Shown: positions 3,759-20,601 of the stretch, piece after piece
Position numbering within the stretch: the first letter of the stretch is position 1
How the letters are laid out: every line of letters starts with the position of its first letter
Source of the DNA: a virus
Length of the DNA: 22,165 bases
IMG/VR virus record: IMGVR_UViG_3300001589_000041
Coordinates: 11,112-33,276 of that record
Reading direction: 5' to 3' (one strand)
The notes under the pieces: generated by a model
Told to the model about the DNA's origin: nothing
The model's input: the letters and a program-made list of their open reading frames with translations, nothing else
Database searches by the model: none
Translations under genes and position numbers: made by a program

Positions 3759-6700
3759 ATGGCAAATCTTCAGAGAAATTTTATTAAAGGAAGAATGAAT
3801 AAAAGCCTTGATGAAAGGCTACTTCCCAATGGTGAATATATAGACGCTCTTAACGTTAGGCTTGGTTCCACTGAAGATAGCGAGATAGGGTCCGTAGAAA
3901 ATTCGAAAGGTAATACAGTCTTAACTCAACTTTCATATTCAGGAGCTGATACTAGTCTAGCAGCTCGATGCATAGGGGCTTTCGAGGATGGTGTGAATCA
4001 AAGGATATATTGGTTTGTACACGATCCTTCTTTTACTTTAGGCTTGCCACAAAAACTAGATTTAATTGTTTCATACAATGTTCATACAAGTAACTTAACG
4101 TACCACATTATTAGCATTAATGACGGAAGTGACACCTCTACCACTCTTAACTTTAGTTCTGATAGTTTAATAACAGGGGTTAACTTGGTCGACGATCTGC
4201 TGTTTTTTACTGATAATTTAAATCCTCCTAGGGTAATAAACATAAACAAAAGCTATGATGTTCCAGTAAATAATATAGATCAATTTATTGCTGAAGATAT
4301 ATTAGTTATAAAAAGACCTCCTGTTGAAGCGCCAACCTTAAAACTTTTTAATGTCGCGGGACAACAAGATAATTTCTTAGAAGAAAGATTTATTTCTTTT
4401 GCTTATCGTTATAGATATTCAAATGGAGAGTATTCTGCGACATCTCAGTTTAGCAAGTATGCGTTTGACCCTGGAACTTTTAATTTTAGCTTTAATAGTT
4501 TTTTAAATGAAGGAATGAAAAACAGTAAGAACGCTGTTATCATAACATTTAATGCCGGAGGACCTTTAGTAAAAGATATACAATTATTATTTAAAGAGTC
4601 TACGACCAATACTATTAAGGTAATAGAAACTTTTAATAAGAGTAATTTAGGTTACGCAGATTTTAATAATTATACTTTTACTTTTGATGAAAGTAAAATA
4701 TTTACCGTTTTACCTGAAAGCGAAATATTAAGGTTATTTGATAATGTTCCTAAGATAGCCAAAGCTCAAACTATTATGGGCAACAGACTTGTTTATGGAA
4801 ACTACAAAGATGGTTATGATTTAGTAGATAAATTTAATGATCCATTAAAATTAGAATTTATTTCAAATCTAACTTCTCAACCAATAGATGTTGAGGCTAT
4901 AAATACGCCCGTAGGCCCACATACATATACAATAAATACCTCTCAAACTATTATAAACCCTGTTTTATATATAGATTTATCTAATTTTGAATTAATAAAA
5001 GGTTCTGTTGTTACTATAGATTTTAGAATTATACATAAATCATTTTCTGGTAATACTCCCGGTGGAACCACACCACCAACTGATTTAATATTTGAATACA
5101 TTCTTCCTCAAGATTTTGCTAATGTATATTCATTAGCCACAAGTACAGATTTTATAGAAAAAGTAGGAACTGCTACAAATATACAAACTGTTCCTAATGC
5201 GAGTCTTGGAACAACCCTAACAGACCAAGTTAACGCCGCTATCCCATCATCCTTAGGAACGTATACCAAAACAGCAAGTGGTATTACAGCGGACGGTGAA
5301 CCTATTGCAATTATTGCAGAACCAACAAATAACACCATTGGATTAGTTTTGATTGCAATGAAATATGTTGATGGTTCAAACATTGCTTACGAATATTATA
5401 ATATAAATTTTGCTTCTGGTGATTATCAAGGAAAGAACAATATATTAAGTTTACATAGTAACCGAGGGTATGAGATTGGCATTGTTTATATGGACGAATA
5501 TAACCGCTCATCTACAGCTTTAGTAAGCCCAAGCAATACTATTCAAGTCCCCTGTGCTAATTCTGTAAACCAAAATAAAATTCAAGTTACTATACCAATA
5601 CAGCAGCTAGCACCAAAGTGGTCGACAAGATATAAGTTTGTTATAAAACCATCTGAAGACACTTACGATACTATTTACTCCAACATATATTATAAGCCTG
5701 TAGGATCAAGTTTTGTTTGGTTTTTACTAGAGGGGGAAAGTTCAAATAAAATAGAAGAAGGAGATCGTTTAATAGTTAAATCTGACAGTCAAGGTCCAGT
5801 TTTAAGATGTGTGGAAACTACGGTTTTAGAAAAATCGGCTCAAATAGCAGATTTCATAACAGCTAAAGATGATAGCGGTAATACCATATCGATTGCTGCT
5901 GGTACATACATGAAGTTAAATCCAAGTAACTTTTCAGCTGCCGTTACAGATAATGGAATAGTTGCTCCAGGGTCTAAGTACACCGCTAGAAATGCACCTG
6001 GAACCTTTCCAATAATGGCTTATAATTTAAATATAGAAGACCCCTCTAATTCAGGTCAATATTTAGATTATAACGTTCCCTCTGGTAGTAGAATTACTTT
6101 AAATATAAGACAGGAAAGGGTTGGACCTAGATCAGGTAATAGTTTGTGCGAAAGAAGGATAAATGAAATTGATGTAAATCTTATTACCACTAGAGATTAC
6201 TCTAGTATGGAGAACTGGTTTTATGGTGACAATATTGGTGATGTTTTACAAACAGCAGCACAGACCGAAGTTGGCGGAGGCGATGCTCCTATTTTAAACG
6301 AAGTACAACCATTTTTATCTCAGGCTGGGGCTCCAAACTTAGATTCTACAACGTCGACAGACATTGCAACTAATCTAACAACAAATTATTATAGAGTATA
6401 TAGGAACACAACTACAAATCAATTATCTCTTTTAATTACGGGAACAGAAAGGTGTTCGGGACGCACAGGAATTAGCAAACGAAGGTCAAGCATTACAGCA
6501 GAAATACAAGTATTTAGATCTGAATCCGTTATTACTTTTGAGAGTATACCTCAAGACGCAGCGGCTGATGTTTGGTATGAAAACCATTTGTCTTTTCCTA
6601 TAGACGAGGACGGACATCACCAAGCAAATGTGCAGAATCAAACCGATAACGTGTCAGCTATAGTTGATACCGAATTTGCAAATGTCTATACTTTTGGAAA

Positions 6701-9050
6701 TGGAGTAGAAAGTTATAAAATATTAGATTCTTTAACTGGGAGAACCTTAAACTATGGGGAAAGAGTAACTACCACTACTTCACAAGAATATAAAGAGAGT
6801 GACAGAATAGCTGACCTAACTTATAGCGGGGTTTACAATGATGAGTCTAATGTAAATAAATTAAACGAATTTAATTTAGGGTTAGCTAATTTTAAAATAT
6901 TAGAAGATAGTTTTGGCGGCATACAAATACTTCATTCAAGAAAAACGGATATTTTAGTATTACAAGAAGATAAAATATCTTACGTGTTATCAGGTAAAAA
7001 TTTACTAACCGATGCCATCGGGGGTGGGGCATTAACCTCTATTCCTGAAGTTTTGGGTACACAAATATCGAGAATAGAAGAATACGGTATAAGCAAAAAC
7101 CCCGAAAGCTTTGCTTCGTGGGGAGCAAACAAATATTTTACGGATGCAAAAAGAGGAGTTGTATTAACCTTAAAAGGTTCAAGTGCGCAGAATGAACAGC
7201 TAGAGATAATCTCTCAATACGGAATGCGTGGGTGGTTTAGAGACACTTTTATAGAGTCTTTTGACACAGAAAAAATTGGTGGATTTGATCCTTACATGAA
7301 TGAGTATGTTTTGGCTACGTCTTTATCTACAGGGTCCTTATTAGCTGAGTGTGTAAATTGTGGTATTAACAAATCTATTACTTTAACTCCTAACGTGCCA
7401 TTTACATATTGTGTTGACTTAACAGAGTTTTTAGGAGAAACAGAGATAAAGTATACTATTCCTTTTGAGGGAAACGATGCGGTTAATAGTGAGGCGGGAG
7501 TAAATATAGTAACTGAATTAAACTCAAATCAGATTGTTAGTGAAAATGTTTTATCTGGAACAGGATATGTTATAACGGCAGTTTATAATGGAATTACCTA
7601 TTCCACTGGAAATGTGTTTAAAAGTGGAGTTTTAACATTTAACAAAAACTCAGTTACTGCAACCAAGGTGGACATTACTATAACCACAAGCTCAACATTA
7701 GCTGATACCATTCAAGTGGATGTCGAATGTCCAAACTCACAAATTATTAATATTTATAACATAGCTGTAACTAGTAACTCGGATGCAGAAAAATTTATAA
7801 CAAATGAATACAGGTGGAGTTCGGGAACTTATAACTCGCCTCTTCACTCAGAAAGAGTAGAGTTTTCTACTAGCACCACTAATCCTATAGTCTCACAATA
7901 CTCTTTGGTTTCAGGACGCGAAGGCGGTGGTGTTATACCAGGTGCAAATGCAGTGGTTTCTATTATAAGTAGAAAAGAAGGTTTTGACAACTACGTTTTT
8001 AATTCAGCAAATAGATTAAAATATTATAGAAGTGATACTCTCTTTCAAAATAATGGGGCTGATATAACAAGACTTTTAGCTCTTGCTAGTGATGCTGTTC
8101 CAATATTGTCACAAGCTAACCCTCCTCAAGACTTTGCTACATTTACTCTACCCTCTACAGGCCAAAACCTATATTTAATATGGGACTATAGAGAGCCAAC
8201 AGCAGGAATATTATGTCAGTCCACAACATCGGCTAATGATGCGTGTACAGGATGTGCTGCCGTTCCTACGCCACCTATACCACCTGTACCACCAACGCCA
8301 AATTTTTACGGATGGAATATAGAAGCTTCGGGGTCTACGACTAGCCCTTCTTCTTGTCCTTTAACTGGGCAATTAATATACTCTAGCGCTGCAAGCATAA
8401 ATGCTGTGTTTGCTAATAGCACTGTTTTTTACACCACCCCAGGTTTACAGGCTGGAACAGAATTTAATGGAGAAAATAAATATTTTGGAGTAAGGGATCC
8501 TTCATCTGGAAGCGGAACATCTCAAGCGATATTTAGATTTACTAGCGTTGGAACAGTTTCAAATATTGATACTACAGGTGTATGCTCAACTAACCCTGGG
8601 CCTAATCCTAATATTGAAGCGTGGGACTTGCAGTTGTGTGATGGAAGTAGCGCTAACAAACAAGCTCTTCAAGAGGTTAATGGAGATAGACTCTTTGCTG
8701 ACATGGTTATTGGACATGACGGTTCCTGTTACAGAGTGCTTTCTCTAGCACCGAGTGTTTTAGCTGACGGCTTTAGTGAATGGGCAGAGTTTAATGACTA
8801 TGCTGATGGCGGATGTACTCAATGTGACGGTACTATTAAATATTACGAGGTAGCCAACTGTAGCAACCTTGGAAGTCTTACAGACGTAAGAATTGACATA
8901 GGGGGTACATTAGCGGTAGGAGGAGCATATTTTTATAATGGGGCCTGTTACACAGTAACTAAAAACATTGGAGTTAGTAGCGGAGCAACCGTAGTACCTT
9001 CAAAATATTATGGGAATTGTGACCAATGTAACGAAGATAATAACCTTTAA
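3759..9050 (+). CDS. Giant tail nozzle / muzzle ('tail stabilization') protein
   Basis: 1763 residues. The N-terminus (residues 3-45), with N-F-I-K-G-R-M-N-K-S-L-D-E-R-L, P-N-G-E-Y-I-D-A-L-N-V and later V-E-N-S-K-G-N, is the signature of the P22 gp10-like/crAss-like muzzle family, which closes the tail tube and probably touches the cell surface first. The middle (about 50-1200) is beta-rich. A conserved block at about 985-1187 holds L-N-E-F-N-L-G, D-I-L-V-L-Q-E-D-K and G-G-F-D-P-Y-M-N-E-Y. A CxxC and a Pro-rich linker (about 1497-1515) lead to a variable C-terminal region. This ends in two Cys modules (C1627-C1657-C1686xxC1689 and C1701-C1730-C1754xxC1757). No signal peptide. The gene starts one base after the previous stop. 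Confidence 0.8.
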   Translation: MANLQRNFIKGRMNKSLDERLLPNGEYIDALNVRLGSTEDSEIGSVENSKGNTVLTQLSYSGADTSLAARCIGAFEDGVNQRIYWFVHDPSFTLGLPQKLDLIVSYNVHTSNLTYHIISINDGSDTSTTLNFSSDSLITGVNLVDDLLFFTDNLNPPRVININKSYDVPVNNIDQFIAEDILVIKRPPVEAPTLKLFNVAGQQDNFLEERFISFAYRYRYSNGEYSATSQFSKYAFDPGTFNFSFNSFLNEGMKNSKNAVIITFNAGGPLVKDIQLLFKESTTNTIKVIETFNKSNLGYADFNNYTFTFDESKIFTVLPESEILRLFDNVPKIAKAQTIMGNRLVYGNYKDGYDLVDKFNDPLKLEFISNLTSQPIDVEAINTPVGPHTYTINTSQTIINPVLYIDLSNFELIKGSVVTIDFRIIHKSFSGNTPGGTTPPTDLIFEYILPQDFANVYSLATSTDFIEKVGTATNIQTVPNASLGTTLTDQVNAAIPSSLGTYTKTASGITADGEPIAIIAEPTNNTIGLVLIAMKYVDGSNIAYEYYNINFASGDYQGKNNILSLHSNRGYEIGIVYMDEYNRSSTALVSPSNTIQVPCANSVNQNKIQVTIPIQQLAPKWSTRYKFVIKPSEDTYDTIYSNIYYKPVGSSFVWFLLEGESSNKIEEGDRLIVKSDSQGPVLRCVETTVLEKSAQIADFITAKDDSGNTISIAAGTYMKLNPSNFSAAVTDNGIVAPGSKYTARNAPGTFPIMAYNLNIEDPSNSGQYLDYNVPSGSRITLNIRQERVGPRSGNSLCERRINEIDVNLITTRDYSSMENWFYGDNIGDVLQTAAQTEVGGGDAPILNEVQPFLSQAGAPNLDSTTSTDIATNLTTNYYRVYRNTTTNQLSLLITGTERCSGRTGISKRRSSITAEIQVFRSESVITFESIPQDAAADVWYENHLSFPIDEDGHHQANVQNQTDNVSAIVDTEFANVYTFGNGVESYKILDSLTGRTLNYGERVTTTTSQEYKESDRIADLTYSGVYNDESNVNKLNEFNLGLANFKILEDSFGGIQILHSRKTDILVLQEDKISYVLSGKNLLTDAIGGGALTSIPEVLGTQISRIEEYGISKNPESFASWGANKYFTDAKRGVVLTLKGSSAQNEQLEIISQYGMRGWFRDTFIESFDTEKIGGFDPYMNEYVLATSLSTGSLLAECVNCGINKSITLTPNVPFTYCVDLTEFLGETEIKYTIPFEGNDAVNSEAGVNIVTELNSNQIVSENVLSGTGYVITAVYNGITYSTGNVFKSGVLTFNKNSVTATKVDITITTSSTLADTIQVDVECPNSQIINIYNIAVTSNSDAEKFITNEYRWSSGTYNSPLHSERVEFSTSTTNPIVSQYSLVSGREGGGVIPGANAVVSIISRKEGFDNYVFNSANRLKYYRSDTLFQNNGADITRLLALASDAVPILSQANPPQDFATFTLPSTGQNLYLIWDYREPTAGILCQSTTSANDACTGCAAVPTPPIPPVPPTPNFYGWNIEASGSTTSPSSCPLTGQLIYSSAASINAVFANSTVFYTTPGLQAGTEFNGENKYFGVRDPSSGSGTSQAIFRFTSVGTVSNIDTTGVCSTNPGPNPNIEAWDLQLCDGSSANKQALQEVNGDRLFADMVIGHDGSCYRVLSLAPSVLADGFSEWAEFNDYADGGCTQCDGTIKYYEVANCSNLGSLTDVRIDIGGTLAVGGAYFYNGACYTVTKNIGVSSGATVVPSKYYGNCDQCNEDNNL

Positions 9051-9053
9051 ATT

Positions 9054-10076
9054 ATGGCAACACAAGCAACATTTTATTTTGATACAGCAAGTTTTGCAAA
9101 TGCAACTACGGTTTTTACAGACCAAAACTTAACCAATATAGCTCCAAATGGATGGTATTCTGACCAGACAATTGTCCGTCAGCAAAGTGCAGGAGTTTTA
9201 TTTGCGGCTCAGTCTTGCTCTGCGCCCATTCCTGTACCGCCTACTCCGCCTACTCCGCCTACGCCTACGCCTACTCCTACGCCTACACCGCCTACTCCTA
9301 CGCCTCAGCCTACGCCTATAGGAACTTCAACAGTTACTTATGCATTGACTACTAATATTACCAGCGGAGGAACGCCAGCACCATCATCAATTTATAATTT
9401 AGTAGATAACCTAAGTGGCGAAACACAAACAGGAACTATTGGGCAACAAGAATATGATTTTAAAACTAACCTTACTGTCCCTAGTTCTTACGTTATTGCC
9501 TCTGTAACTCCCGCGACCGCAAAAGACTATTTCCCTGGTGCTCCAGCCACAGTTACAGGAACGTTAACAGCGGTAATAAGTCCTAGGAACATTACGGTTA
9601 CACAGGCCGCAACGCTTAGTCCGAGCTTGGCTCCCGCTGCCCCAGCCTTAACAATTTCTGTAAATCCCTCCTCGGCTTCGGTTCAGTATGATACCAATTA
9701 TAACACAACAGTTAGCATTGCAGCAAACACAGGGTCGCTAACTGGCGTTACCATAGGAGGAACTCCTGGAACATCAAGAGGCTTTACTCATCTTGTTAAC
9801 ACTGCTACACCAGGTTATGAGAATTTTACAACTGAAATAGATGGAACCTACACAGCACCAACACCGACACCACCTGCTCCAACAGGTTCATATGATTTAT
9901 TTTATTGTAGCGGAGGAGGAGCTAATTTAAGAGTTGTAGATGATGGAAATATTTCTACAGGGATGGTAATTAAATATGCAGGTTACTGTTATACTGTAGA
10001 CAATTATACATCTTATACAGGAAACATAGTAGATTATGATGAGTTCAGTGATTGCGCTGAATGTTTAGCTTCATAA
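9054..10076 (+). CDS. Fibre-like tail protein with Pro-Thr linker and terminal Cys module
   Basis: 340 residues in three parts. Residues 1-58 form a small N-terminal domain beginning M-A-T-Q-A-T-F-Y-F-D-T, likely to be the virion attachment part. Residues about 58-90 are a Pro-Thr linker. Residues about 92-270 are a Thr/Ser/Ala-rich beta region. Residues 280-340 are a Cys module (C285, C312, C334xxC337) with the pattern Y-C-Y-T-V then C-A-E-C, the same pattern as the two modules ending the preceding nozzle protein. It starts three bases after that protein's stop, so it may be a partner or a split-off fibre of the nozzle. Function is inferred from modularity, linker type and position; receptor binding is plausible but unproved. 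Confidence 0.66.
   Translation: MATQATFYFDTASFANATTVFTDQNLTNIAPNGWYSDQTIVRQQSAGVLFAAQSCSAPIPVPPTPPTPPTPTPTPTPTPPTPTPQPTPIGTSTVTYALTTNITSGGTPAPSSIYNLVDNLSGETQTGTIGQQEYDFKTNLTVPSSYVIASVTPATAKDYFPGAPATVTGTLTAVISPRNITVTQAATLSPSLAPAAPALTISVNPSSASVQYDTNYNTTVSIAANTGSLTGVTIGGTPGTSRGFTHLVNTATPGYENFTTEIDGTYTAPTPTPPAPTGSYDLFYCSGGGANLRVVDDGNISTGMVIKYAGYCYTVDNYTSYTGNIVDYDEFSDCAECLAS
9237..9317 (+). repeat. Pro-Thr codon microsatellite
   Basis: A run of CCN and ACN codons, mostly of the forms CCTACT, CCTACG and CCGCCT, encodes residues 62-88 of the fibre-like protein as alternating Pro and Thr. Its base composition is much richer in C than the AT-rich surroundings. The repeated hexamers make it prone to slippage in steps that keep the frame. 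It acts as a stiff spacer between N-terminal and distal domains. Confidence 0.85.
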
Positions 10077-10116: not shown

Positions 10117-11292
10117 ATGAAAGAGACACTCAATTTTTTATCACAAGAGGAGTGCGCTTATTTTATTGACATGATTGACAAGAATCATGCACCGTCCTCC
10201 GTTGTAGAAGGGGGAGATGAAATAAGCAGCTACTCTGAAACACGAACTTCAAGCACTTGCAATCTTAATCATTCAGAAGAAAAAGTACAGCAACTTCAAA
10301 AAAAGATAGCTGATTTTTTGGGTATTGATATTCTTAAAGGGGAACACTTACAAGGACAGCTTTACGAAGAAGGAGAGTATTTTAAACCTCATCAAGACTT
10401 TTTTTTAGGGCCTGGATATAACAAACATTGTTTGGCTTCAGGCAACAGAACCGAAACCTTGATGATATATCTTAATGATGATTTTGAAGGGGGTGGTACA
10501 AATTTTGTAAATCAAAACAAAATAGTAAAGCCACAGCAAGGAATGGCTTTGAGCTGGAAGAATATGATTGACGGCCAAGTTCAAGACAATGCAATGCATG
10601 AGGGCATGCCAATAACAAAAGGCAAAAAGTATATTCTTACTTCTTGGTGGAGAGAAAGGGATTGGAATCCCTCTAAAGACATAGAGGCTTTTCAGCAACA
10701 AAAACAACCTCCAGTATATGCCAACCCATCTGAAGTCCCTAAGCTTACAGAGTCAGGATTCAAAGTTGTTAAGTGTCCTCCAGCGGCATGGGCGTTAATA
10801 CAAGACTGTTACACTATGTTAAAAGAAAAGGGTGTTACAGAAAATTGGCAAGGTATAAAAGCTATTATTCCCACAGGAGAAAGCGAGATGCTAGACTTTG
10901 AAAAAATTCCTTTTATTAGGTCGATGGTACATCAAGAGCTTTTACCCCTACACAAAGAGTTTGCCAACAGAAATGTCAGACCATCATTTATATATGGTAT
11001 AAGGTCATATAAAAAAGGCGCAACTTTAACAACTCACACAGACAGAGTTGAAACGCACCATGTCTCTTCAATTATAATAGTGGATAAAGATTTAAGATGT
11101 GGGTGTCAACATAAAGAGTTTGGTGATGATTGGGCCTTAGATATACGAGACCACGCAGGCTATTGGCATAAAGTGTATGCGGAGCCTGGGGATATGATTA
11201 TGTATGAATCAGCCGTATGTCCTCATGGGAGGGTCGAAGCTTTTCAAGGTAATTATTTTAGGAACTTATTTGTACATTACCAACTAACATGA
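10117..11292 (+). CDS. Tandem two-domain 2-oxoglutarate/Fe(II) oxygenase (prolyl-4-hydroxylase-like)
   Basis: 391 residues, two complete jelly-roll oxygenase domains. Domain 1 (1-185) resembles prolyl 4-hydroxylase. Its iron ligands would be H92 and D94 (HQD) and H161 (M-H-E-G); K171 in K-G-K-K-Y would bind 2-oxoglutarate at the usual +10 spacing. A linker (about 186-205) leads to domain 2 (206-391), with H307 and D309 (HTD), H370 (P-H-G-R) and R382 (F-R-N-L-F) as the matching set. Such enzymes hydroxylate protein side chains or small molecules using O2 and 2-oxoglutarate. The gene has its own leader and lies between two fibre-like genes with Pro-rich linkers, so proline in virion proteins is a possible substrate (inference). 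Both domains look intact. Confidence 0.86.
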   Translation: MKETLNFLSQEECAYFIDMIDKNHAPSSVVEGGDEISSYSETRTSSTCNLNHSEEKVQQLQKKIADFLGIDILKGEHLQGQLYEEGEYFKPHQDFFLGPGYNKHCLASGNRTETLMIYLNDDFEGGGTNFVNQNKIVKPQQGMALSWKNMIDGQVQDNAMHEGMPITKGKKYILTSWWRERDWNPSKDIEAFQQQKQPPVYANPSEVPKLTESGFKVVKCPPAAWALIQDCYTMLKEKGVTENWQGIKAIIPTGESEMLDFEKIPFIRSMVHQELLPLHKEFANRNVRPSFIYGIRSYKKGATLTTHTDRVETHHVSSIIIVDKDLRCGCQHKEFGDDWALDIRDHAGYWHKVYAEPGDMIMYESAVCPHGRVEAFQGNYFRNLFVHYQLT

Positions 11293-11330
11293 CCACATGG
11301 GGTTTAAAAAATAACATCAATTAAAATTTG

Positions 11331-11354: not shown

Positions 11355-13118
11355 ATGAACGGTTGGAAGTTTACGGCAGGTGCTGCAAATATATCTGGTA
11401 TTGCTGCTGTTGGCTATAATAAAGGCGCTTTAGTTGATTGTCCTAGTGCAGCAAGTATGGGCACAGGGTTTACACCAACAACTTTAACAACTAATCTACC
11501 TGGTTTTGGGTGCTATAATGACTCCTCTGGCAGCGGAGGTATTGCTCGAACTATAGGTTTTGCTCTCAATGGTTCTGGAGCTCAATCAAACATCTCATTA
11601 GCTAGTTTTTATTACACAGTATCTACAGGTGTAACTACTGCTGCATTTATGACAACCTCCTCTCAGACCAATATAGGTAGCGGTACTTTGTCAGGAACAA
11701 TAACGGGTGACGATGGCTCTTCAGGAACTTGGACCGTTACTTATAGTAAACAGTCATCACCATTTTTTGATGACAATGGTTTTGGTAGTTCATATGAGCC
11801 ATTATCAGAAGGATCTGTTACAGTATCAGGGCTTACAATTACTAATGCAGTTACATATGATGTGATTACATCGGGATCACCTGCACCTGTTCCTGCGCCA
11901 ACACCTATAGCTATACCAGATTTTTGTTTAGCCTCAAGCAATACAGTAAGTTTTCAGACAATAAATGGCGTAAACTCTTATGTGTTTGGGTCTACTTATG
12001 GTAAGTACGGGTCAAGCACAGGTATATTTGTTCTTCTTTCAGTTCCCTCTACTCACCCTATAGCATTTTACAATACAGGCAAAACCACTCTTTTAACTTA
12101 TTCGGGGCAGTTTAGTGCTGGTAAAAAACAAGCTTTAGACGGAAACACTTATGAATATTATTATGGTGATGTAACTTTAGTAGTTAGTGGTGATTATGGA
12201 ACAACGAGCTACGAGTGTTTTAATCACGGATATATGGGAGGGCAAAATAATTTAGTTTATAACGACTTTGTTTGCCCGCCTTTAGGACCCCCTATAGTAC
12301 CACCGATAGAGGATCCTACAAAACAATACACCTTAAGTTATAGCGAAGGCGTAACAGGCTGGCCTTCTTTTTATTCCTATAATCCGGACATGATGATTGG
12401 TATGAATAATTATTTTTACACATTTAAACGTGGCCAATTATATAGTCATAATACTAATCCAACGAGAAATAATTACTACAACGTACAGTATAATTCTCAA
12501 ATTACATCTGTGTTTAATGCAAATGCTTTAGAAAATAAAATATTTAAAACCATAAATCTTGAGAGCGACAGCTCGTGGACAGCTTCTTTATCAACAGATA
12601 TACAAACTGGAGGAACTATTAATAGTGAGTGGTTTGTAAAAAAAGAAGGGGCATGGTTTGCATTTGTCCGAGCAACCCAAAGCGAGCCAGCTGTAGCGCA
12701 GGCATACTCTATGAGGTCTGTAAACGGCATTGGAAAAAGTAGTTTTATTGCAGATTCAGGAGGATCAACACAAATAGGTTTTTCAACTTCCCCTTACGTG
12801 TCAATAGGAAGTGAGGTTAGTGTGGGTGATCTTATTTATTTTTCGTTATCTCCTTATACTACAATTGATTTAGCAGGTGAGATAATTAATATAAATGTAG
12901 ACCTAAGTCAATCAATAAACACCATTGTAATAAATACCAATATACAGGGTGCAGTAGCTCTGTCCACACAAGACCCATACATAGCCTACATTAAAAACCA
13001 GCAAGCGGAATCACATGGCATGCTTGGTCATTACTGTTTATTTACTTTAAAAAATACCGACACATCTGCAACGGAGCTGTTCGCTGTTGAATCAGAGGCA
13101 ATGAAAAGCTATCCATAA
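11355..13118 (+). CDS. Tail surface protein with cupredoxin-like domain and conserved phage C-terminal domain
   Basis: 587 residues. Residues 1-175 are a Gly/Ser/Thr-rich beta domain, ended by a short Pro-Ala linker (about 176-188). Residues about 190-312 form a beta domain with H234 (T-H-P-I-A-F), then C288, H291 and M294 in E-C-F-N-H-G-Y-M-G-G. The H...CxxHxxM set is the ligand pattern of blue-copper (cupredoxin) proteins. A second short Pro-rich linker (about 312-322) precedes a C-terminal domain with F-Y-S-Y-N-P-D-M-M-I-G-M-N-N-Y-F and L-Y-S-H-N-T-N, a block I recall from structural proteins of other marine phages. Likely role: peripheral tail or fibre protein. Copper binding is a motif-based prediction. 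The start fits the promoter at 11331. Confidence 0.66.
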   Translation: MNGWKFTAGAANISGIAAVGYNKGALVDCPSAASMGTGFTPTTLTTNLPGFGCYNDSSGSGGIARTIGFALNGSGAQSNISLASFYYTVSTGVTTAAFMTTSSQTNIGSGTLSGTITGDDGSSGTWTVTYSKQSSPFFDDNGFGSSYEPLSEGSVTVSGLTITNAVTYDVITSGSPAPVPAPTPIAIPDFCLASSNTVSFQTINGVNSYVFGSTYGKYGSSTGIFVLLSVPSTHPIAFYNTGKTTLLTYSGQFSAGKKQALDGNTYEYYYGDVTLVVSGDYGTTSYECFNHGYMGGQNNLVYNDFVCPPLGPPIVPPIEDPTKQYTLSYSEGVTGWPSFYSYNPDMMIGMNNYFYTFKRGQLYSHNTNPTRNNYYNVQYNSQITSVFNANALENKIFKTINLESDSSWTASLSTDIQTGGTINSEWFVKKEGAWFAFVRATQSEPAVAQAYSMRSVNGIGKSSFIADSGGSTQIGFSTSPYVSIGSEVSVGDLIYFSLSPYTTIDLAGEIININVDLSQSINTIVINTNIQGAVALSTQDPYIAYIKNQQAESHGMLGHYCLFTLKNTDTSATELFAVESEAMKSYP

Positions 13119-13140: not shown

Positions 13141-13551
13141 ATGGAGTTTGATATAAGAAAACTAAATTCCACTGACTATGACGAGGTATTAGTTGGTTGG
13201 TGGAAGGACTGGGGATGGGAGCCTCCAGCCAAAGACTTTCTACCAGAAAACGGCGAAGGCGGTTTAATAGTATTAGAAAATAACGTACCTGTGTGTGCAG
13301 GATTTATATATGTAACAAATTCAAAAGTAGCTTGGGTAGACTGGATTATATCAAACAAAAAATACATTAATAAAAAAGGTAAGTATAAAGCAGTAAATCT
13401 GCTTATTGATTCCCTTACCAATACATGTAAAAAAAATGGTAACAAATATGTATACGCTCTTATAAAGCACGACGGATTGATTAAAACTTATGAGAATTTT
13501 GGATACATTAAAGGCGACACATACACACAAGAAATGATTAAAGTATTATAA
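13141..13551 (+). CDS. GNAT-like acetyltransferase of phage type
   Basis: 136 residues. The N-terminus M-E-F-D-I-R-K-L-N-S-T-D-Y, a W-W-K-D-W-G-W segment (20-26) and D-F-L-P-E-N-G-E-G-G (32-41) are typical of a short GNAT-like family I recall from marine phage structural regions. V-C-A-G-F-I-Y-V marks strand beta-4, and K-K-G-K-Y-K-A (about 78-84) sits where the acetyl-CoA pyrophosphate loop is expected, although it departs from the classic R/Q-x-x-G-x-G/A. The end, F-G-Y-I-K-G-D, matches the last GNAT strand. It would transfer an acetyl group from acetyl-CoA to an unknown substrate, perhaps a virion protein. It has its own promoter at 13126. Codons 32-42 lie in one arm of a 34-bp inverted repeat. 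Confidence 0.76.
   Translation: MEFDIRKLNSTDYDEVLVGWWKDWGWEPPAKDFLPENGEGGLIVLENNVPVCAGFIYVTNSKVAWVDWIISNKKYINKKGKYKAVNLLIDSLTNTCKKNGNKYVYALIKHDGLIKTYENFGYIKGDTYTQEMIKVL
13234..13267 (-). repeat. 34-bp perfect inverted repeat, left arm
   Basis: These 34 bases are the exact reverse complement of 15984-16017. This arm encodes D-F-L-P-E-N-G-E-G-G-L of the acetyltransferase, a segment that looks native to that family, so this is probably the source copy. It contains a small dyad, TTTCT-ACC-AGAAA. The strand is arbitrary and shows orientation opposite to the right arm. Confidence 0.93.
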
Positions 13552-14392: not shown

Positions 14393-16369
14393 ATGGCAAC
14401 TAAAATAGGGTTTAAAGTACGAGATAAAGCAATAATACCAGATGTCTCTCCTTTGTTTGATTTGTCAAAAACGCTTTTAGAGCAAGAAGATACAAGAGAA
14501 AAACAAAGGCAGACTTGGAGAGATGAGCAGGATGCTCTTAGGAAAAGTCAAACCGAATTAACGCCAACGGTAAACCAAGACGCTAACCAATTCTTTGGTA
14601 AGTTTAGCCAAGGTATAATAGACGAGTCTTTAGATCTTCAAAAAATGTTAGAGTCAGGACAAATTAACTCAAGCGACTACTCTGCCCAGTGGCGAAACTT
14701 AAATCAATCTAATGAGCAGATGATAGCTGCGCAAACATCCTACCAAGAAACTGCTCAAAAAATAACTGAAGATGTGGCCAATGGGATATCTAGTGAGGTA
14801 AACACAAAGAATTTAAATCATTTTAACAAAGTTTTCCAGCCTGGAGCAATGGAGGTCGAGCGAGATGGAAGGGGTGGATTAAGATTATTTAACAAAAAAA
14901 CAGGAGATATAGTAACCCCTTCATACCTTAGTAATTTAACGAATAGTAATCTACCTCTGTATGACTACATGAAAGTAGCTGACACATTAGTGAAACAATT
15001 TGGAGTAAGAGGTATTACAGATGCAGCGGGTAATACCATAAAGGGAGTATACGCAAACATGGATGAAGGTAAATTAGATGAGTTAATGTTAATAGAAGCT
15101 AAAGCTCTTTTAGACGGCGCACAAGCTCCAATTGTATCAATATTAGTTGATGGTATGGGGCATGATGTGGTTTATAATGAAGATGAATTAAAAGATGGGA
15201 GTGTATATAGAAAACCTGATGGCACCTTCGCTTTTTCTGAAAAAGATAAAGAGAAAGCAGAAGTGTTTATGAGGAACGCTCTTAAAAATGCATTGCCTTT
15301 AGAGAAAAAAGAAGCTCAAGATTTAACTGCTGTACAAAAAGAAGAATTAAAACTTAAAAAACAAAGATTAGCACTAGACATTGACAAGCTAAACTTAGAC
15401 AAAAAGAAATTTAGTAAAGAAGATCGAGACAAGGCGACAGACTTAAAAACAAAAGCTCAACTTATAAGCACCTTGTACTCTGGAACAATTGCTGATATTA
15501 ACGCGACAGTAGATTACTACAGAGACTACGGGGGTAACACCAATGTTCTTGAGGTTAAAAGAAATGATACCGGAATTGTTGTGACCTTTGAAGACGAAAA
15601 TGGAAACGCTCAAACAAGGTCCGTGAGTTTCTTTACGGCTGATAGCACTTCAGATACCAATGTCCCCAACCCTGACTTTGATCCAAGCCAACCCGAAAGT
15701 GAAACAAATCAAAAGTTTGTCAAAGGTAGACAATTGACTGAGGCCCAGTTTGTAAATTCAGCTTCACAGCTATTAATAGGTGAAGACGTGTCAACTGAAA
15801 TAAAAAGCAGAGGAGATGACGGCGAATTATTATATAACCGAGCCCTGACATCGGTCGACAGTCCGATTACTGCCACCACAACGATTGAAGAGGGTGAAAC
15901 ATTAGCTCAATCCGAAACGTATAATGTTTCAGCTGATCAGTATTTTGATAAAATTATTGCTGATCCAGAAATTGATTTTGGTTTTAAACCGCCTTCGCCG
16001 TTTTCTGGTAGAAAGTCATCGAACAAGCCCGGTCTGGGACTTGGAGTTGGTCCCCTATTGCTTAATTCAGCTGATGAAGATTTAGCTACTGTTTTAGAAT
16101 CTAGTTTTAAGGATATAGGATTAATTGCTACAGATACTGGTGGTTTGAATAATGAAGTAAATGTAAGAATCCCTGGGGTTACTGAGACAATTACAATAGA
16201 CGCTAACAATTATACAGGTTCGGGACAATTAGAGGAAACACAAAAGCTTAGAGAATTTATAACTAACGCCCTTAAAAGAAGCCCTGACTTGCAAGAAAAA
16301 CTTAATTTAAAAGCTGACGTAAAAAAGCGAGGCGGGCGGGGATCAAAATACAATAAAGTAGGAGGATAA
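14393..16369 (+). CDS. Internal virion protein, unknown family
   Basis: 658 residues, starting immediately after the previous stop. It is helical and charged, with no signal peptide. Residues about 20-130 are rich in Gln, Glu and Ser, followed by a mixed region to about 290. A strongly coiled-coil stretch lies at about 303-356 (many Lys, Leu, Glu, Asp). The C-terminal half is acidic and ends with a basic Gly-Arg-rich tail (K-K-R-G-G-R-G-S-K). By position between a gp14-like protein and a giant multidomain protein, it corresponds to the middle ejection protein of podoviruses. No enzymatic motif was recognised. Residues 531-542 (K-P-P-S-P-F-S-G-R-K-S) are encoded by the right arm of the 34-bp inverted repeat and may be acquired sequence. 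Confidence 0.7.
   Translation: MATKIGFKVRDKAIIPDVSPLFDLSKTLLEQEDTREKQRQTWRDEQDALRKSQTELTPTVNQDANQFFGKFSQGIIDESLDLQKMLESGQINSSDYSAQWRNLNQSNEQMIAAQTSYQETAQKITEDVANGISSEVNTKNLNHFNKVFQPGAMEVERDGRGGLRLFNKKTGDIVTPSYLSNLTNSNLPLYDYMKVADTLVKQFGVRGITDAAGNTIKGVYANMDEGKLDELMLIEAKALLDGAQAPIVSILVDGMGHDVVYNEDELKDGSVYRKPDGTFAFSEKDKEKAEVFMRNALKNALPLEKKEAQDLTAVQKEELKLKKQRLALDIDKLNLDKKKFSKEDRDKATDLKTKAQLISTLYSGTIADINATVDYYRDYGGNTNVLEVKRNDTGIVVTFEDENGNAQTRSVSFFTADSTSDTNVPNPDFDPSQPESETNQKFVKGRQLTEAQFVNSASQLLIGEDVSTEIKSRGDDGELLYNRALTSVDSPITATTTIEEGETLAQSETYNVSADQYFDKIIADPEIDFGFKPPSPFSGRKSSNKPGLGLGVGPLLLNSADEDLATVLESSFKDIGLIATDTGGLNNEVNVRIPGVTETITIDANNYTGSGQLEETQKLREFITNALKRSPDLQEKLNLKADVKKRGGRGSKYNKVGG
15984..16017 (+). 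repeat. 34-bp perfect inverted repeat, right arm
   Basis: These 34 bases are the exact reverse complement of 13234-13267, 2.7 kb upstream. Identity stops sharply at both ends. About half of its bases are G or C, above its surroundings. In this gene it encodes K-P-P-S-P-F-S-G-R-K-S, while its complement encodes a conserved acetyltransferase segment. Confidence 0.93.
16361..16366 (+). promoter_or_regulatory. Shine-Dalgarno-like site with TAATG stop-start overlap
   Basis: GGAGGA lies 2 bases before the ATG at 16369, and the preceding gene's TAA shares its last A with that ATG. It is the only good Shine-Dalgarno-like sequence among the start sites here. The spacing is shorter than ideal, and the bases also encode the final Gly-Gly of the upstream protein, so it may be fortuitous. 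Confidence 0.4.
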
Positions 16370-19300
16370 TGAACGAACAAGCTTTAAAAGACGCTTATGA
16401 TTTATTTCGTGCCGAGGGGTATGAGGGATCTATAGAAGAGTTTATTAGTTTAATGCAAACCAATCCGGAAGCAGTAAATGATGCTTTTTCTATTTTTCAA
16501 GATGAGGGATATGAGGATAGTATTGACGACTTCCAAAACTTAATAGGCGTAAAAAAAAAAGACCCGATCGCTATGGCTTCCGTATCGGGGGATGGTTCTT
16601 CGGTTTTACCAGAGTCTCCAGAGCAGCCTACTGAAAAAGATTACTTTGAAGGAACCTTTGGCGACATACTCCGAGGGTTTGATAACGTTACACAGACAGG
16701 ATTAGGTGATTTTGTAGATGACATGGCGCGTAGTGTAGCGTCTGGTTATTATCAGGGCGTTGCTTCAGAAAATGCATCCGACCTTCTCCTTGCAGGGTCA
16801 ATGGCTTCGGAAGAAGATATAGCTAGTTTTATAGAAGCAAATAAAAACACACAGATGTACGGCCCATCAGCTGAGATGCAAGAGTATCAAAAGGCTTACG
16901 AAGATGAGGGTAAAAGCTTTTGGGGCGTTGTAAAAGGCTTAAGTAAAAGTGGTCTAACTATATTGCCAGAGTTAATTGTAAGCTCTCTTACATCTATGGC
17001 AACAAACACGGACTCTCTTTTAGCTGGTGCAGCTACTATAGGTACAGGAGCAGCAGTCGGAGGAGGTCTTCCTGGTGCAGCCGCCGCCGTACCTTTTGCT
17101 TTTGGAGCGGCAAGCTCCGCTTTAGAGATGGGCGCTACATTCTCAGAATTGTTACAAGAAGAGCTTGATGGTAAAGATTTAACTTCTGAAAACGTTAGAG
17201 CTGTCTTAGAAGATCCTGAGGCTTTTAATAGTATAAGAAATAAGGCTATCACTAGGGGTATTGCTATTGGAACAATAGATGCGTTTACGGGTAAACTGGC
17301 GGGAGGCGTAGGCGCAAAACTTTTAACTAAAGGAGGTAAGAGTCTTTCTGCCGCTAGTAAATTAGACAAAATTAAATCCGTTGGCGCGGCTGGTTTAATA
17401 GAGGGGGCTGGCGGGTCAATTGGCGAAGCCACTGCTAGAGGGCTGATTGGTCAGGAGATGGACATATCTGAGATTGCTTTAGAGGGATTGGCTGAAACCC
17501 CAGGGGGGATAAAAGACATAGTCTCGGCTAGATTCAGCAAGCCTAAGTATAGGATAAACGGTCAGAGAGTAGACGTAGAAGAGATTGATAATGTAATTAA
17601 TAACTTTACTTTAGAGCAAATACAAGCCACTAAAATAAAAATTGACAATGATTACTCCGGAAAATCTAAGGAGTTAAACGATAGAGTGATAAGGTTGTCT
17701 GTGGAGCGTGAGCTTTTACAAGCTAACCCAGATTTAAACAAGCCTACACTCGAAGCATTGACCGATCTTCAGTTAGAATTAAACGAGCTAGAAGGAAACA
17801 AAACAGAGCCAGCCAAAGAAAAAGCTTCTTTACTAAGGCAACAAATGAAAGACTTGCAAGCCGCTCCCCTACAAGAAGAGGTAGAGGTAGAAGCGGGGCG
17901 TGCGCGATTTAGCATGCAAGATGACGTAGAGATAGACGCGGCTTTATCCGAGGCATCAGGTACCACGCAAGTCGCCACTACTAAAGGTAGTTATGATAAG
18001 GTTGCTAGGGAAATAAAAAAGGATGGCTCTAAAAGTACTTTAGATTATGGCGCGGGGCTTGGCATAGGCACAGACTCTATGTCCTCTATATTAGAAGATG
18101 ATGTAGATTCATTTGAAATTAATACCGAAAGGTGGAAGGGAAAAAACCCTCCCACTTATACCTCATCCGACCAAATTACCAAAACATACGACAATATTGT
18201 TTCTCTTAATGTTCTTAATGTAGTACCCGCAAATGTTAGAAATTTTATAGTAAAAGATATTGCCTCTAAACTTAAGGTTGGTGGTAGGGCATATATAAGT
18301 ACAAGAAAATTTAAGGGTGATATAGATAACGCAAAAAACTTTGAGCCTGGCCCTGAAGATAAAAGCTATATAATTAAAAGGAAACAAGGCAATGAGGTTA
18401 TTGATGTATATCAAAAAGGATTTGATGGCAATGAACTTGTAACTTACATAGAAGAAACATTAGGACCAGGATTCGAAGTACAAAAAGATAATAGTTTCGG
18501 GTCTTCAGGCGTTATAATAACTAAAGTTACAGCAGATACCCGCTTTGAAATACAAGATCAAGGAGATGCTTTAGTGCAAACAACGGAGGAAAATATTGAC
18601 GCTATAACGGAAGAGATGAATGCCTTAGATGAGGAGGAAGTAAACTTTACTACTCCAGAAGGAGAGACTACCGTTACTGTCAACCCCTTAGAAGAAAGCA
18701 CAACGCCTGAGACAATAACAGAGGAGGAACTTGCAGAGCTTGGATATGAAACCACGGATGATCTCGTAAAACCTATATCCTTTTTTAATGGCATCCCAAT
18801 GATTACTGGTATATCTGATATACTTGCAACCGGTACAGTAAAGGATGCATCAGGTAAAGACATGCAAGTCAACGGAGGTTTACTGTTTAATGTAAAAGGT
18901 AAAAGTAAAAATGCTGCGTGGGCAGGAGTGGCTAAAGACAAGTCTGAGGGTCAGTATGACAACGCTGTTAGGACCTACCAAAAAAACAAAGAGTTATTTG
19001 ATAGATTATGGCAAGAGGGCAAATTGCCAAATGGCCATGTGCCAATGGCTATTATAAGAATGAGTAACGATGCTGTTAATTCTAATGAAGCTGCATTTAG
19101 GTTTTTTATATCTGAAATAAACTCTCAGTCAAAAGAAAACCAAGTCGCTGCAATGACAGATGTCAAGTCTATATTTGAAAACAAGACAGGACAACAAGCA
19201 AAGCAAGGGCGGGTCGTTTTATCTTTTATTAATAGAAACAATATTCAAACCCTTGGGCAGTTTTTTGATGCCATTGTAAAAGATGCAAATGATAGAGCTA

Positions 19301-20601
19301 AGGGTGATGTAGATAATACATTAAGTTTAAATGAGCGAGAATATATATTTAAAAATTTAATTTCTGCTGAAGGGGTTAAAAAGGCAAACAAACCTTTTAT
19401 TAAATCACTTTACAAAGGAGGTGAGGTGAATGAAAGCATGTTTACGGCAAATAATCTCTACAATTCTATCGGGGAGCCTTCGATGCTAAAGTCTAATAAA
19501 GGAGATGTTGTGGCCGTTGTTGGGATCGACGTATTAAATGGAGGAGTAATAGATATAGATCATGAAAACTATGGGACTGGGCCTAAAGGAAGGGCTATAG
19601 CTTTAATAGAAAACCCTACAAATGGGGTGGAGGTTTTTCCTACATGGAAGGCTAAGGCTAACAGGGTGTTTAAAAAGGATACGCGCGGAAAAAGACCAAC
19701 CGAGCAAGAAGTAGCGGCACAGACAATGGGAACGGCTCCGATAGACAAGGCTTTTCAAGGAGATGTTGTTAGTACTGATATGAACTCGCTTGATGTATTA
19801 ATAGGAAAGCTAAGATTTGCTTTCCCAAACGTTAGCGTTACTAGAACGATAGAGGAATTTAACAACATACTGTCACAACCTGGAGTCAGAACTAAAGAGA
19901 CAGAAGGAAAGACAATACTTGGTTTAACTACCGAGGGAAAAATATTTTTAAATCCAGAGTTTGAATCATTAGCTACTCCTATACATGAGTTTGGTCATAT
20001 CTGGTTGGATTTTTTAAGGTCTAAAGCGAGCGGTGAAAAAGGAACTAAGCTTTTTAATAGAGGTATTAAGCTTGTTGAAGGAACGCCCGAGCTTACAAGA
20101 GCTATAGAAAAATATGGTGATACAAAACTAGCAAGGGAAGAGGCATTAGTAGAATTGTTAGCTACTAAGGGCGATACTATAGCTAAGGCCAGTCTAAAGT
20201 CTAGATTCAAAGAGTGGATGAATGCTATGTTTAAATACATACAACAAAAGTTTTCTACTTCAGAGCAAAGATTTAAGACTCAAGAAATTAAAGACGTTAA
20301 GAAACAATTCAAAGACAAGAAAATAAATCAAAAGCAAAGAGATAAATTGTTGCGGCGGATAGATCGTCAAGTTGAATTTGATATATCTAATTTAAGCTTA
20401 CAGGAGTTTATTGACACGGGGTTAGCTGATCTGTTTAAAGGAAAAGAACTTTCAGCTCGTTTTGATGCCACAGCCGAATCAACAGGCTCCGCAGTAAGGA
20501 TGAGAAAAGGAGAAAAATCTCAGGAGCAAAGAGTAAGAGAGGGCCTTAAAAGAACTGACGATCAAGGCAAAGAAATCCCAAGGGAAAACTCCATCTGTTA
20601 G
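16369..20601 (+). CDS. Polyvalent ejected virion protein, N-terminal part: methyltransferase and zinc metallopeptidase domains
   Basis: 1410 residues before a TAG at 20599. In order: two ~30-residue repeats (5-29 and 34-58) of the form D-A-[YF]-x-[LI]-F-x-x-E-G-Y-E-x-S-I-x-x-F; an Ala/Gly-rich membrane-like segment (about 216-256); a helical region (to about 510); a class I SAM methyltransferase domain (about 540-725) with L-D-Y-G-A-G-L-G (558-565), E583 and Y-D-N-I-V-S-L-N (607-614); an unassigned domain (about 825-1130); and a zincin peptidase domain with H1206-E-F-G-H1210 and a possible third ligand at E1257 or E1258. This matches phage polyvalent proteins, which are packaged and ejected to protect the DNA or disable host defences. 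Reading seems to continue in frame 2 downstream, so this is probably not the true C-terminus. Confidence 0.75.
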   Translation: MNEQALKDAYDLFRAEGYEGSIEEFISLMQTNPEAVNDAFSIFQDEGYEDSIDDFQNLIGVKKKDPIAMASVSGDGSSVLPESPEQPTEKDYFEGTFGDILRGFDNVTQTGLGDFVDDMARSVASGYYQGVASENASDLLLAGSMASEEDIASFIEANKNTQMYGPSAEMQEYQKAYEDEGKSFWGVVKGLSKSGLTILPELIVSSLTSMATNTDSLLAGAATIGTGAAVGGGLPGAAAAVPFAFGAASSALEMGATFSELLQEELDGKDLTSENVRAVLEDPEAFNSIRNKAITRGIAIGTIDAFTGKLAGGVGAKLLTKGGKSLSAASKLDKIKSVGAAGLIEGAGGSIGEATARGLIGQEMDISEIALEGLAETPGGIKDIVSARFSKPKYRINGQRVDVEEIDNVINNFTLEQIQATKIKIDNDYSGKSKELNDRVIRLSVERELLQANPDLNKPTLEALTDLQLELNELEGNKTEPAKEKASLLRQQMKDLQAAPLQEEVEVEAGRARFSMQDDVEIDAALSEASGTTQVATTKGSYDKVAREIKKDGSKSTLDYGAGLGIGTDSMSSILEDDVDSFEINTERWKGKNPPTYTSSDQITKTYDNIVSLNVLNVVPANVRNFIVKDIASKLKVGGRAYISTRKFKGDIDNAKNFEPGPEDKSYIIKRKQGNEVIDVYQKGFDGNELVTYIEETLGPGFEVQKDNSFGSSGVIITKVTADTRFEIQDQGDALVQTTEENIDAITEEMNALDEEEVNFTTPEGETTVTVNPLEESTTPETITEEELAELGYETTDDLVKPISFFNGIPMITGISDILATGTVKDASGKDMQVNGGLLFNVKGKSKNAAWAGVAKDKSEGQYDNAVRTYQKNKELFDRLWQEGKLPNGHVPMAIIRMSNDAVNSNEAAFRFFISEINSQSKENQVAAMTDVKSIFENKTGQQAKQGRVVLSFINRNNIQTLGQFFDAIVKDANDRAKGDVDNTLSLNEREYIFKNLISAEGVKKANKPFIKSLYKGGEVNESMFTANNLYNSIGEPSMLKSNKGDVVAVVGIDVLNGGVIDIDHENYGTGPKGRAIALIENPTNGVEVFPTWKAKANRVFKKDTRGKRPTEQEVAAQTMGTAPIDKAFQGDVVSTDMNSLDVLIGKLRFAFPNVSVTRTIEEFNNILSQPGVRTKETEGKTILGLTTEGKIFLNPEFESLATPIHEFGHIWLDFLRSKASGEKGTKLFNRGIKLVEGTPELTRAIEKYGDTKLAREEALVELLATKGDTIAKASLKSRFKEWMNAMFKYIQQKFSTSEQRFKTQEIKDVKKQFKDKKINQKQRDKLLRRIDRQVEFDISNLSLQEFIDTGLADLFKGKELSARFDATAESTGSAVRMRKGEKSQEQRVREGLKRTDDQGKEIPRENSIC

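Follow-up and report, generated by a model that had tools for sequence, protein, structure and literature searches.

A twin-domain phage oxygenase beside proline-rich tail genes: candidate first enzyme of a hydroxyproline O-glycosylation cassette

Introduction

Why would a tailed phage keep a gene for two fused oxygenase domains among the genes of its Pro-rich tail proteins? The question is raised by a stretch of 22,165 bases, here called the window, which is part of a 41,033-base IMG/VR virus record. It is the virion-gene region of a podovirus; its kin are Cellulophaga phage phi13:2 and the Flavobacterium elemo phages. We propose that the oxygenase catalyses the first step of a hydroxyproline O-glycosylation cassette which phages encode to modify their tail proteins. 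We consider this fairly probable; because of the exceptions described below our confidence is moderate. So far, hydroxyproline O-glycans have been described chiefly in plants, algae and protists. In the open-licence literature on phage hydroxyproline, prolyl hydroxylase or HPAT we found no report of such a cassette.

Two oxygenase domains in one protein

The oxygenase gene occupies positions 10117 to 11292 of the window (plus strand, as all features below), starts with ATG and codes for 391 residues. Open reading frame, translation, a PF13640 match and homologues characterize its product as a fused two-domain 2-oxoglutarate/Fe(II) oxygenase. Domain 1 (residues 1-185; 10117 to 10671) is supported by a structural match to 3gze and by invariant ligands. 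Residues 79-179 scored 55.8 bits against PF13640 (cut-off 27), and a domain profile of 53 rows compared with solved structures matched 5iax with an E of 2.1e-34. The top structural match was 3gze itself, an algal prolyl-4-hydroxylase (P4H) in complex with a (Ser-Pro)5 peptide (Foldseek E 3.3e-15; Z 26.2, rmsd 1.3, 181 residues). Bacterial P4Hs with EF-Tu as substrate were also among the best matches. Among 62 non-redundant homologues 60 have domain 1, and all 60 possess H92, D94 and H161 of the HxD...H triad together with the 2OG-binding Lys (K171). A substrate-contacting Tyr is absent: Tyr140 of the algal P4H, described as such in a passage of PMC9676403, corresponds in the alignment to Phe89, which is present in 60/60 phage sequences. 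This Tyr is highly conserved in P4Hs and was not counted as defining. With a family score above cut-off, an intact triad and P4H structures as best matches, domain 1 is prolyl-4-hydroxylase-like, as a preceding sequence-only reading of this DNA had it.

Domain 2 (residues 208-391; 10738 to 11289) is a second DSBH oxygenase, assigned by phrog_2954, 6n1f_B and its triad. Its Pfam score was under the cut-off (PF13661, 15.4 versus 27 bits). It matched phage families which are called 'ferrochelatase' in PHROGs (phrog_2954, E 7.6e-15), and 6n1f_B was a structural match across model residues 208-391 (Z 15.3). H307, D309 and H370 were found in all 62 homologues. R382 is replaced by D or N in six of the 62, therefore its role in 2OG-binding is less sure. 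Thus, the earlier claim of two intact domains in one protein was borne out by invariant metal triads, and of the complete ligand sets that it listed both triads and K171 stood, whereas R382 is in some doubt. The structure prediction which it had called for yielded an AlphaFold2 model with a mean pLDDT of 90, in which both parts are rich in beta-strands and match known oxygenase structures; at a pTM of 0.55 the model does not define how the domains sit relative to each other. In other phages domain 2 occurs on its own together with an HPAT-like glycosyltransferase. Seven such domain-2-only records were searched, two of them of the main backbone, and in each the sole match covered domain 2.

Compared with its relative at locus L002 the window oxygenase had a dN of 0.0129 and a dS of 0.241 (dN/dS about 0.05), and in domain 2 there were 21 synonymous changes versus one non-synonymous change. 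Judged by these codon changes both domains are under purifying selection.

Pro-rich linkers in the adjoining tail proteins

The tail proteins which flank the oxygenase contain Pro-rich linkers, in agreement with the sequence-only reading. Directly upstream an open reading frame (9054 to 10076) codes for a 340-residue tail-associated protein with counterparts of 196-344 residues in L001-L005. It carries the main Pro/Thr tract, with 17 Pro in 30 residues (residues 55-88; 9216 to 9317), which we regard as the proposed modification site and the protein as the proposed substrate. A second, short Pro-rich linker covers residues 266-276 (9849 to 9881). Further upstream is a 1763-residue virion structural protein (3759 to 9050; phrog_14478) with a C-terminal Pro-rich linker at residues 1500-1514 (8256 to 8300). 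Downstream, a 587-residue tail protein (11355 to 13118) has a crAss-like muzzle C-terminal domain (PF25729, crAss_MUZ_C, 3.6e-18). Its linker 1 spans residues 173-188 (11871 to 11918) and its linker 2 residues 305-321, directly before the conserved C-terminal domain (12267 to 12317). The linkers of the 1763- and 587-residue proteins are shorter than the tract of the 340-residue protein. On family evidence the 1763- and 587-residue proteins are virion proteins: the former matches a PHROG 'virion structural protein', the latter crAss_MUZ_C, and homologues in Cellulophaga phage phi13:2 are annotated as structural.

Two observations on the virion proteins may be added. Similar Cys-rich C-terminal segments (CYxV ... 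CxxC) end the 1763- and the 340-residue proteins; seemingly these are duplicated small domains after Pro linkers. A 1410-residue protein (16369 to 20601), presumably ejected or cargo, contains DYGAGLGIG and HEFGH, which we take to be a glycine-rich methyltransferase-like and a zinc-protease-like motif; neither is backed by a Pfam family.

Co-occurrence of oxygenase and Pro-rich tracts

Is the oxygenase linked to the Pro-rich tracts? Loci were gathered from the 587-residue protein (80 kept of 512), the 281-residue gene described below (14) and domain 2 (80 kept of 155) and yielded the 62 non-redundant oxygenase loci. A protein was called Pro-rich when it had at least 13 Pro in 30 residues. Such proteins were present in 62/62 oxygenase loci, and the tracts were mostly rich in Thr and Ser. 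In 78 loci the interval was complete. The 39 with oxygenase all had 13-21 Pro in the densest 30 residues of a tail protein. In the 39 oxygenase-free loci of the same backbone the values were 3-7, and none was Pro-rich. The 23 partial oxygenase loci all reached at least 14 Pro in 30; L029, a short contig with neither flag, is outside both complete-interval counts. The N-terminal part of the 587-residue protein was present in 32/39 oxygenase loci versus 0/39 oxygenase-free loci, i.e. its N-terminal half and the linkers were found only in oxygenase-bearing phages. On a tree of the C-terminal domain of the 587-residue protein the oxygenase changes only two times; therefore, the contrast of 39/39 with 0/39 represents about one evolutionary event. 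A Fisher's test of this contrast was dropped as a measure for this reason.

The association recurred in other backbones. By our own reading eight backbones carry the oxygenase, the 25 backbone clusters including many short fragments, and six of the eight show the association. Independent support outside the main backbone comes from the L208, L111, L197 and L205 types and from L123. The L208 type combines domain 2 alone with an HPAT-like gene and a (TP)n protein. The Pro-rich protein matched 'virion structural protein' PHROGs in L197 and L121, and had no family match in L111, L208 and L205. G011 (L200/L201 type) has an oxygenase and an HPAT-like gene and no Pro-rich tract in its whole 63-kb record; G010 (L236 type) has only a weak tract (11 Pro in 30). 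Thus the earlier idea that oxygenase and Pro-rich genes belong together held in every oxygenase locus of the set, and the refuting case it had named, oxygenases regularly devoid of Pro-rich genes, did not turn up there, yet the main-backbone contrast counts as about one event and G011 lacks a tract.

These data also bear on another target. The oxygenase might hydroxylate a host protein or some other phage protein, as do the EF-Tu P4Hs of Bacillus anthracis and Pseudomonas, and be close to tail genes through inheritance in one lineage. The EF-Tu-modifying enzymes among the best matches and the one main oxygenase transition on the backbone tree agree with this, as do free-standing domain-1 homologues in other contexts. 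In Erwinia phage Y3 and Salmonella phage Sen-NF these are located beside asparagine synthase, and no Pro-rich proteins were detected within 6 kb. The recurrence in other backbones argues against it, and so do tracts which change in sequence while their prolines are kept. We consider another target to be quite unlikely.

Glycosyltransferases follow the oxygenase

The sequence-only reading did not mention that glycosyltransferases lie downstream of the oxygenase. A transferase-type gene was present within 4.5 kb downstream in 60/62 oxygenase loci versus 0/39 oxygenase-free loci, the exceptions being the window and L066. The 60 loci comprise 25 with an HPAT-like gene, 22 with a GT32/GlcNAc-type gene, six with an O-FucT-like gene and seven with both a GT32/GlcNAc-type and an O-FucT-like gene. 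In 31/62 loci the gap from the oxygenase to the next called gene was -4, a stop/start overlap, and in the closest relatives the start of the glycosyltransferase overlaps the oxygenase stop codon. Some cassettes have extra genes for a GDP-mannose dehydratase, a carbamoyltransferase or a radical SAM protein.

In L001 and L002 a 207-residue PF04488 protein follows the oxygenase (Pfam was run on the L002 copy); we take PF04488 to be GT32. In L003-L005 it is a 281-residue protein. Members of the 281-residue family scored above the cut-off for HPAT, the hydroxyproline O-arabinosyltransferase family (PF23452, 23.9 bits), in L163 (33.3) and L023 (30.7), and one distant phage copy reached 45.4 bits. 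Only 11 of the 25 HPAT-like members had an HPAT match at E≤0.01, and for the proteins of the close relatives L004 and L005 Pfam gave nothing at E≤1. HPAT matches were absent from all 14 control genomes. The HPAT-like model has a GT-A fold with an invariant DXD (D107, D109) and matches GT-A structures, glycogenin among them (Z 15.3); these matches are not specific to GT95. By sequence, a comparison of the HPAT-like gene with solved structures gave chance matches only, and tblastn of phage isolates uncovered no HPAT-like proteins. PF11397, the family to which the hydroxyproline GlcNAc-transferase of the Skp1 pathway belongs, was matched in L022 with 115 bits, and O-FucT in L154 with 49.9 bits (cut-off 31.5). 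Family matches place the downstream transferases in groups with known hydroxyproline glycosyltransferases among them (HPAT and GlcNAc/Skp1-type) and in GT32-like and O-fucosyltransferase-like groups.

We also scanned blindly with the HPAT-like family alone, ignoring the oxygenase. The scan returned 80 loci, of which 70 new ones were analysed. An oxygenase domain (1 and/or 2) flanked the HPAT-like gene in 60/70, and 47 of these 60 flanks carried a tract of at least 13 Pro in 30. Among the ten without a flanking oxygenase L207 and L242 start at a contig edge and L245 has domain 1 elsewhere in the record. In the remaining seven the oxygenase profile A6 detected no oxygenase in the record, and a PF13640 search of five of them gave no match. 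Two of the oxygenase-free cases have (TP)n, G002 in a protein of the record and L196 in a protein of the flank. Scans of bacterial genome contigs for the oxygenase (A6) and the HPAT-like family (A7) revealed no bacterial relatives, a weak test with few patterns.

The transferase is exchanged between lineages. A tree of the oxygenase requires 16 or more changes of transferase type. L001 (1-2313) and L005 (397-2709) share 2,313 identical bases upstream and differ in their oxygenase alleles and glycosyltransferases; they are from different metagenomes and a chimeric assembly is possible. Between window and L002 dS was 0.24 for the oxygenase, far below 2.5 for the 587-residue gene and 1.4 for the GNAT gene, which points to a recent exchange of the cassette. 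PPX-type tracts were present in 12/19 loci with a GT32-like gene, versus 1/25 with HPAT and 0/16 with others. On independent pairs this pairing was 3.7/8 in the same direction and 0 in the opposite one (p 0.125); we take it as a hint.

Hydroxylation and glycosylation could also be separate reactions, the transferases acting on Thr/Ser of the tracts (mucin-like, or similar to Ser-galactosylation by SGT1) and the oxygenase modifying another virion residue. The tracts are after all mostly Thr/Ser-rich, and seven HPAT-like loci have no oxygenase, G002 and L196 with tracts among them. PMC8012813 and PMC8724618 describe a kinship of GT95 (HPAT) with GT96, to which the serine galactosyltransferase of extensins, SGT1, belongs, and they count polypeptide alpha-GlcNAc transferases among the members of GT60. 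Yet the (VP)n tracts of L028, L118 and L112 contain almost no Thr or Ser in their densest 30 residues, and these loci still have an oxygenase and an HPAT-like gene; moreover, the oxygenase stays the same across switches of transferase type. Two separate reactions therefore appear unlikely to us.

The GNAT-like gene, which the sequence-only reading had placed in the same cassette, does not belong there: it was present in 28/39 oxygenase-bearing versus 26/39 oxygenase-free loci, and with so similar a frequency it was ruled out as a member. Because this gene of 136 codons (13141 to 13551) is conserved beside the 587-residue gene with or without oxygenase, its role is probably in the virion module.

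Loss of the transferase in the window

The window retains a stub of a deleted glycosyltransferase gene of 207 codons (11289 to 11324, 36 nt), which also had escaped the sequence-only reading. Comparison with L002 by eye showed an in-frame fusion of the first two codons (MT) and the last six (TWGLKN) of the L002 gene, about 597 nt being lost relative to L002 11179-11775. The breakpoints were read by eye; the MAFFT alignment misplaced the gap. The rest of the 41-kb record contains no glycosyltransferase of the cassette kinds. Accordingly, the window phage has an oxygenase without its transferase partner.

Is the cassette of the window phage then decaying and without current function? A transferase gene cut to a 36-nt stub would fit, and L066 too is without transferase. 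Against it stand the low dN/dS of the oxygenase compared with L002 and two intact active sites, although the loss may be so recent that it has left no trace yet. On balance decay in the window phage is very unlikely. Elsewhere cassette decay was seen: in L125 (2351-3097) the HPAT-like gene is shortened to 249 residues, and in L228 (around 5001) both the oxygenase and the HPAT-like gene are broken.

Discussion

From domains, conserved active sites, gene order, co-occurrence and the deletion, all observed, we infer hydroxylation, a substrate, an acceptor residue, an order of reactions, a sugar and its function. Most likely the enzymes would hydroxylate Pro-rich tail linkers and, in most relatives, O-glycosylate them afterwards. 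Late in infection domain 1 would hydroxylate prolines in the Pro-rich linkers of the adjoining tail proteins, and domain 2 is probably a second prolyl hydroxylase for the same linkers. The downstream glycosyltransferase would then put a sugar on hydroxyproline or on a neighboring Ser/Thr of the tract. With the oxygenase kept and the transferase exchanged between lineages, phages may vary the sugars on their tail linkers. The window phage, which lost its transferase by an in-frame deletion, would have linkers which are hydroxylated without sugar, or would rely on a host enzyme.

The proposed cassette resembles the plant and algal pathway for hydroxyproline-rich glycoproteins (P4H with HPAT/GT95 and SGT1/GT96) in the P4H-like enzyme, the HPAT-family transferase and the repetitive acceptor tracts of Ser/Thr/Val-Pro or Pro-Pro-X. 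It differs from it in that the phage genes are co-linear with their putative substrates, transferase families are exchanged and two oxygenase domains are fused. With the protist Skp1 pathway (P4H and hydroxyproline GlcNAc-transferase) it would share the cytoplasmic setting and, in some phages, a PF11397 GlcNAc-type transferase downstream of the P4H. Unlike the one proline of Skp1 the phage targets would be structural repeats, and nothing suggests a role in oxygen-sensing. Another virus-encoded P4H is that of chlorella virus PBCV-1 (5c5t; structural match with Z 20.3), which presumably has a single domain; PBCV-1, unlike the phage here, is a virus of algae. The tandem prolyl hydroxylases OGFOD1/Tpa1p likewise have two DSBH domains per protein and gave whole-length matches. 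According to a passage of PMC4396695 their C-terminal DSBH binds no metal; the phage domain 2 departs from this with an HxD...H in 62/62. Finally, mycobacteriophages have virion glycosylation, for which, likewise, phage-encoded glycosyltransferases are thought to modify virion proteins. Capsid glycosylation is suggested in the abstract of PMC11256854; in the parts of this literature that we consulted a prolyl hydroxylase step, as in the cassette here, is not reported.

A broader and more tentative proposal, to which we give somewhat less than even credence, is that marine tailed phages run a plant-like hydroxyproline O-glycosylation with a twin-domain prolyl hydroxylase and an interchangeable transferase (HPAT-like, Skp1 GlcNAc-type, GT32-like or O-fucosyltransferase-like). 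Tail linkers would be sugar-coated, the transferase would be swapped like an antigen locus and fit the type of repeat (PPX versus PX), and beyond plants HPAT-type enzymes may have a reservoir in viruses. If true, a co-linear phage enzyme pair next to its likely substrates would be a compact study system and a new kind of virion modification. It might also be a route by which phages alter receptor binding or escape without a change in protein fold.

The cassette reading makes a testable claim on an isolate. In the cyanophage Synechococcus phage S-SCSM1 a domain-2 homologue adjoins an annotated GDP-fucose protein O-fucosyltransferase, and a scan of about half of the genome showed a 2603-residue virion protein with a PQPQPRP tract. 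A further tract was seen in the 141-kb phage record G008, the contig of L245. An extensin-like protein there, at about 40951-44078 and beyond, gives 320 overlapping matches to a (P-X)n DNA pattern; the record also has a domain-1 hydroxylase (at 132427) and, near 138267, an HPAT-like gene.
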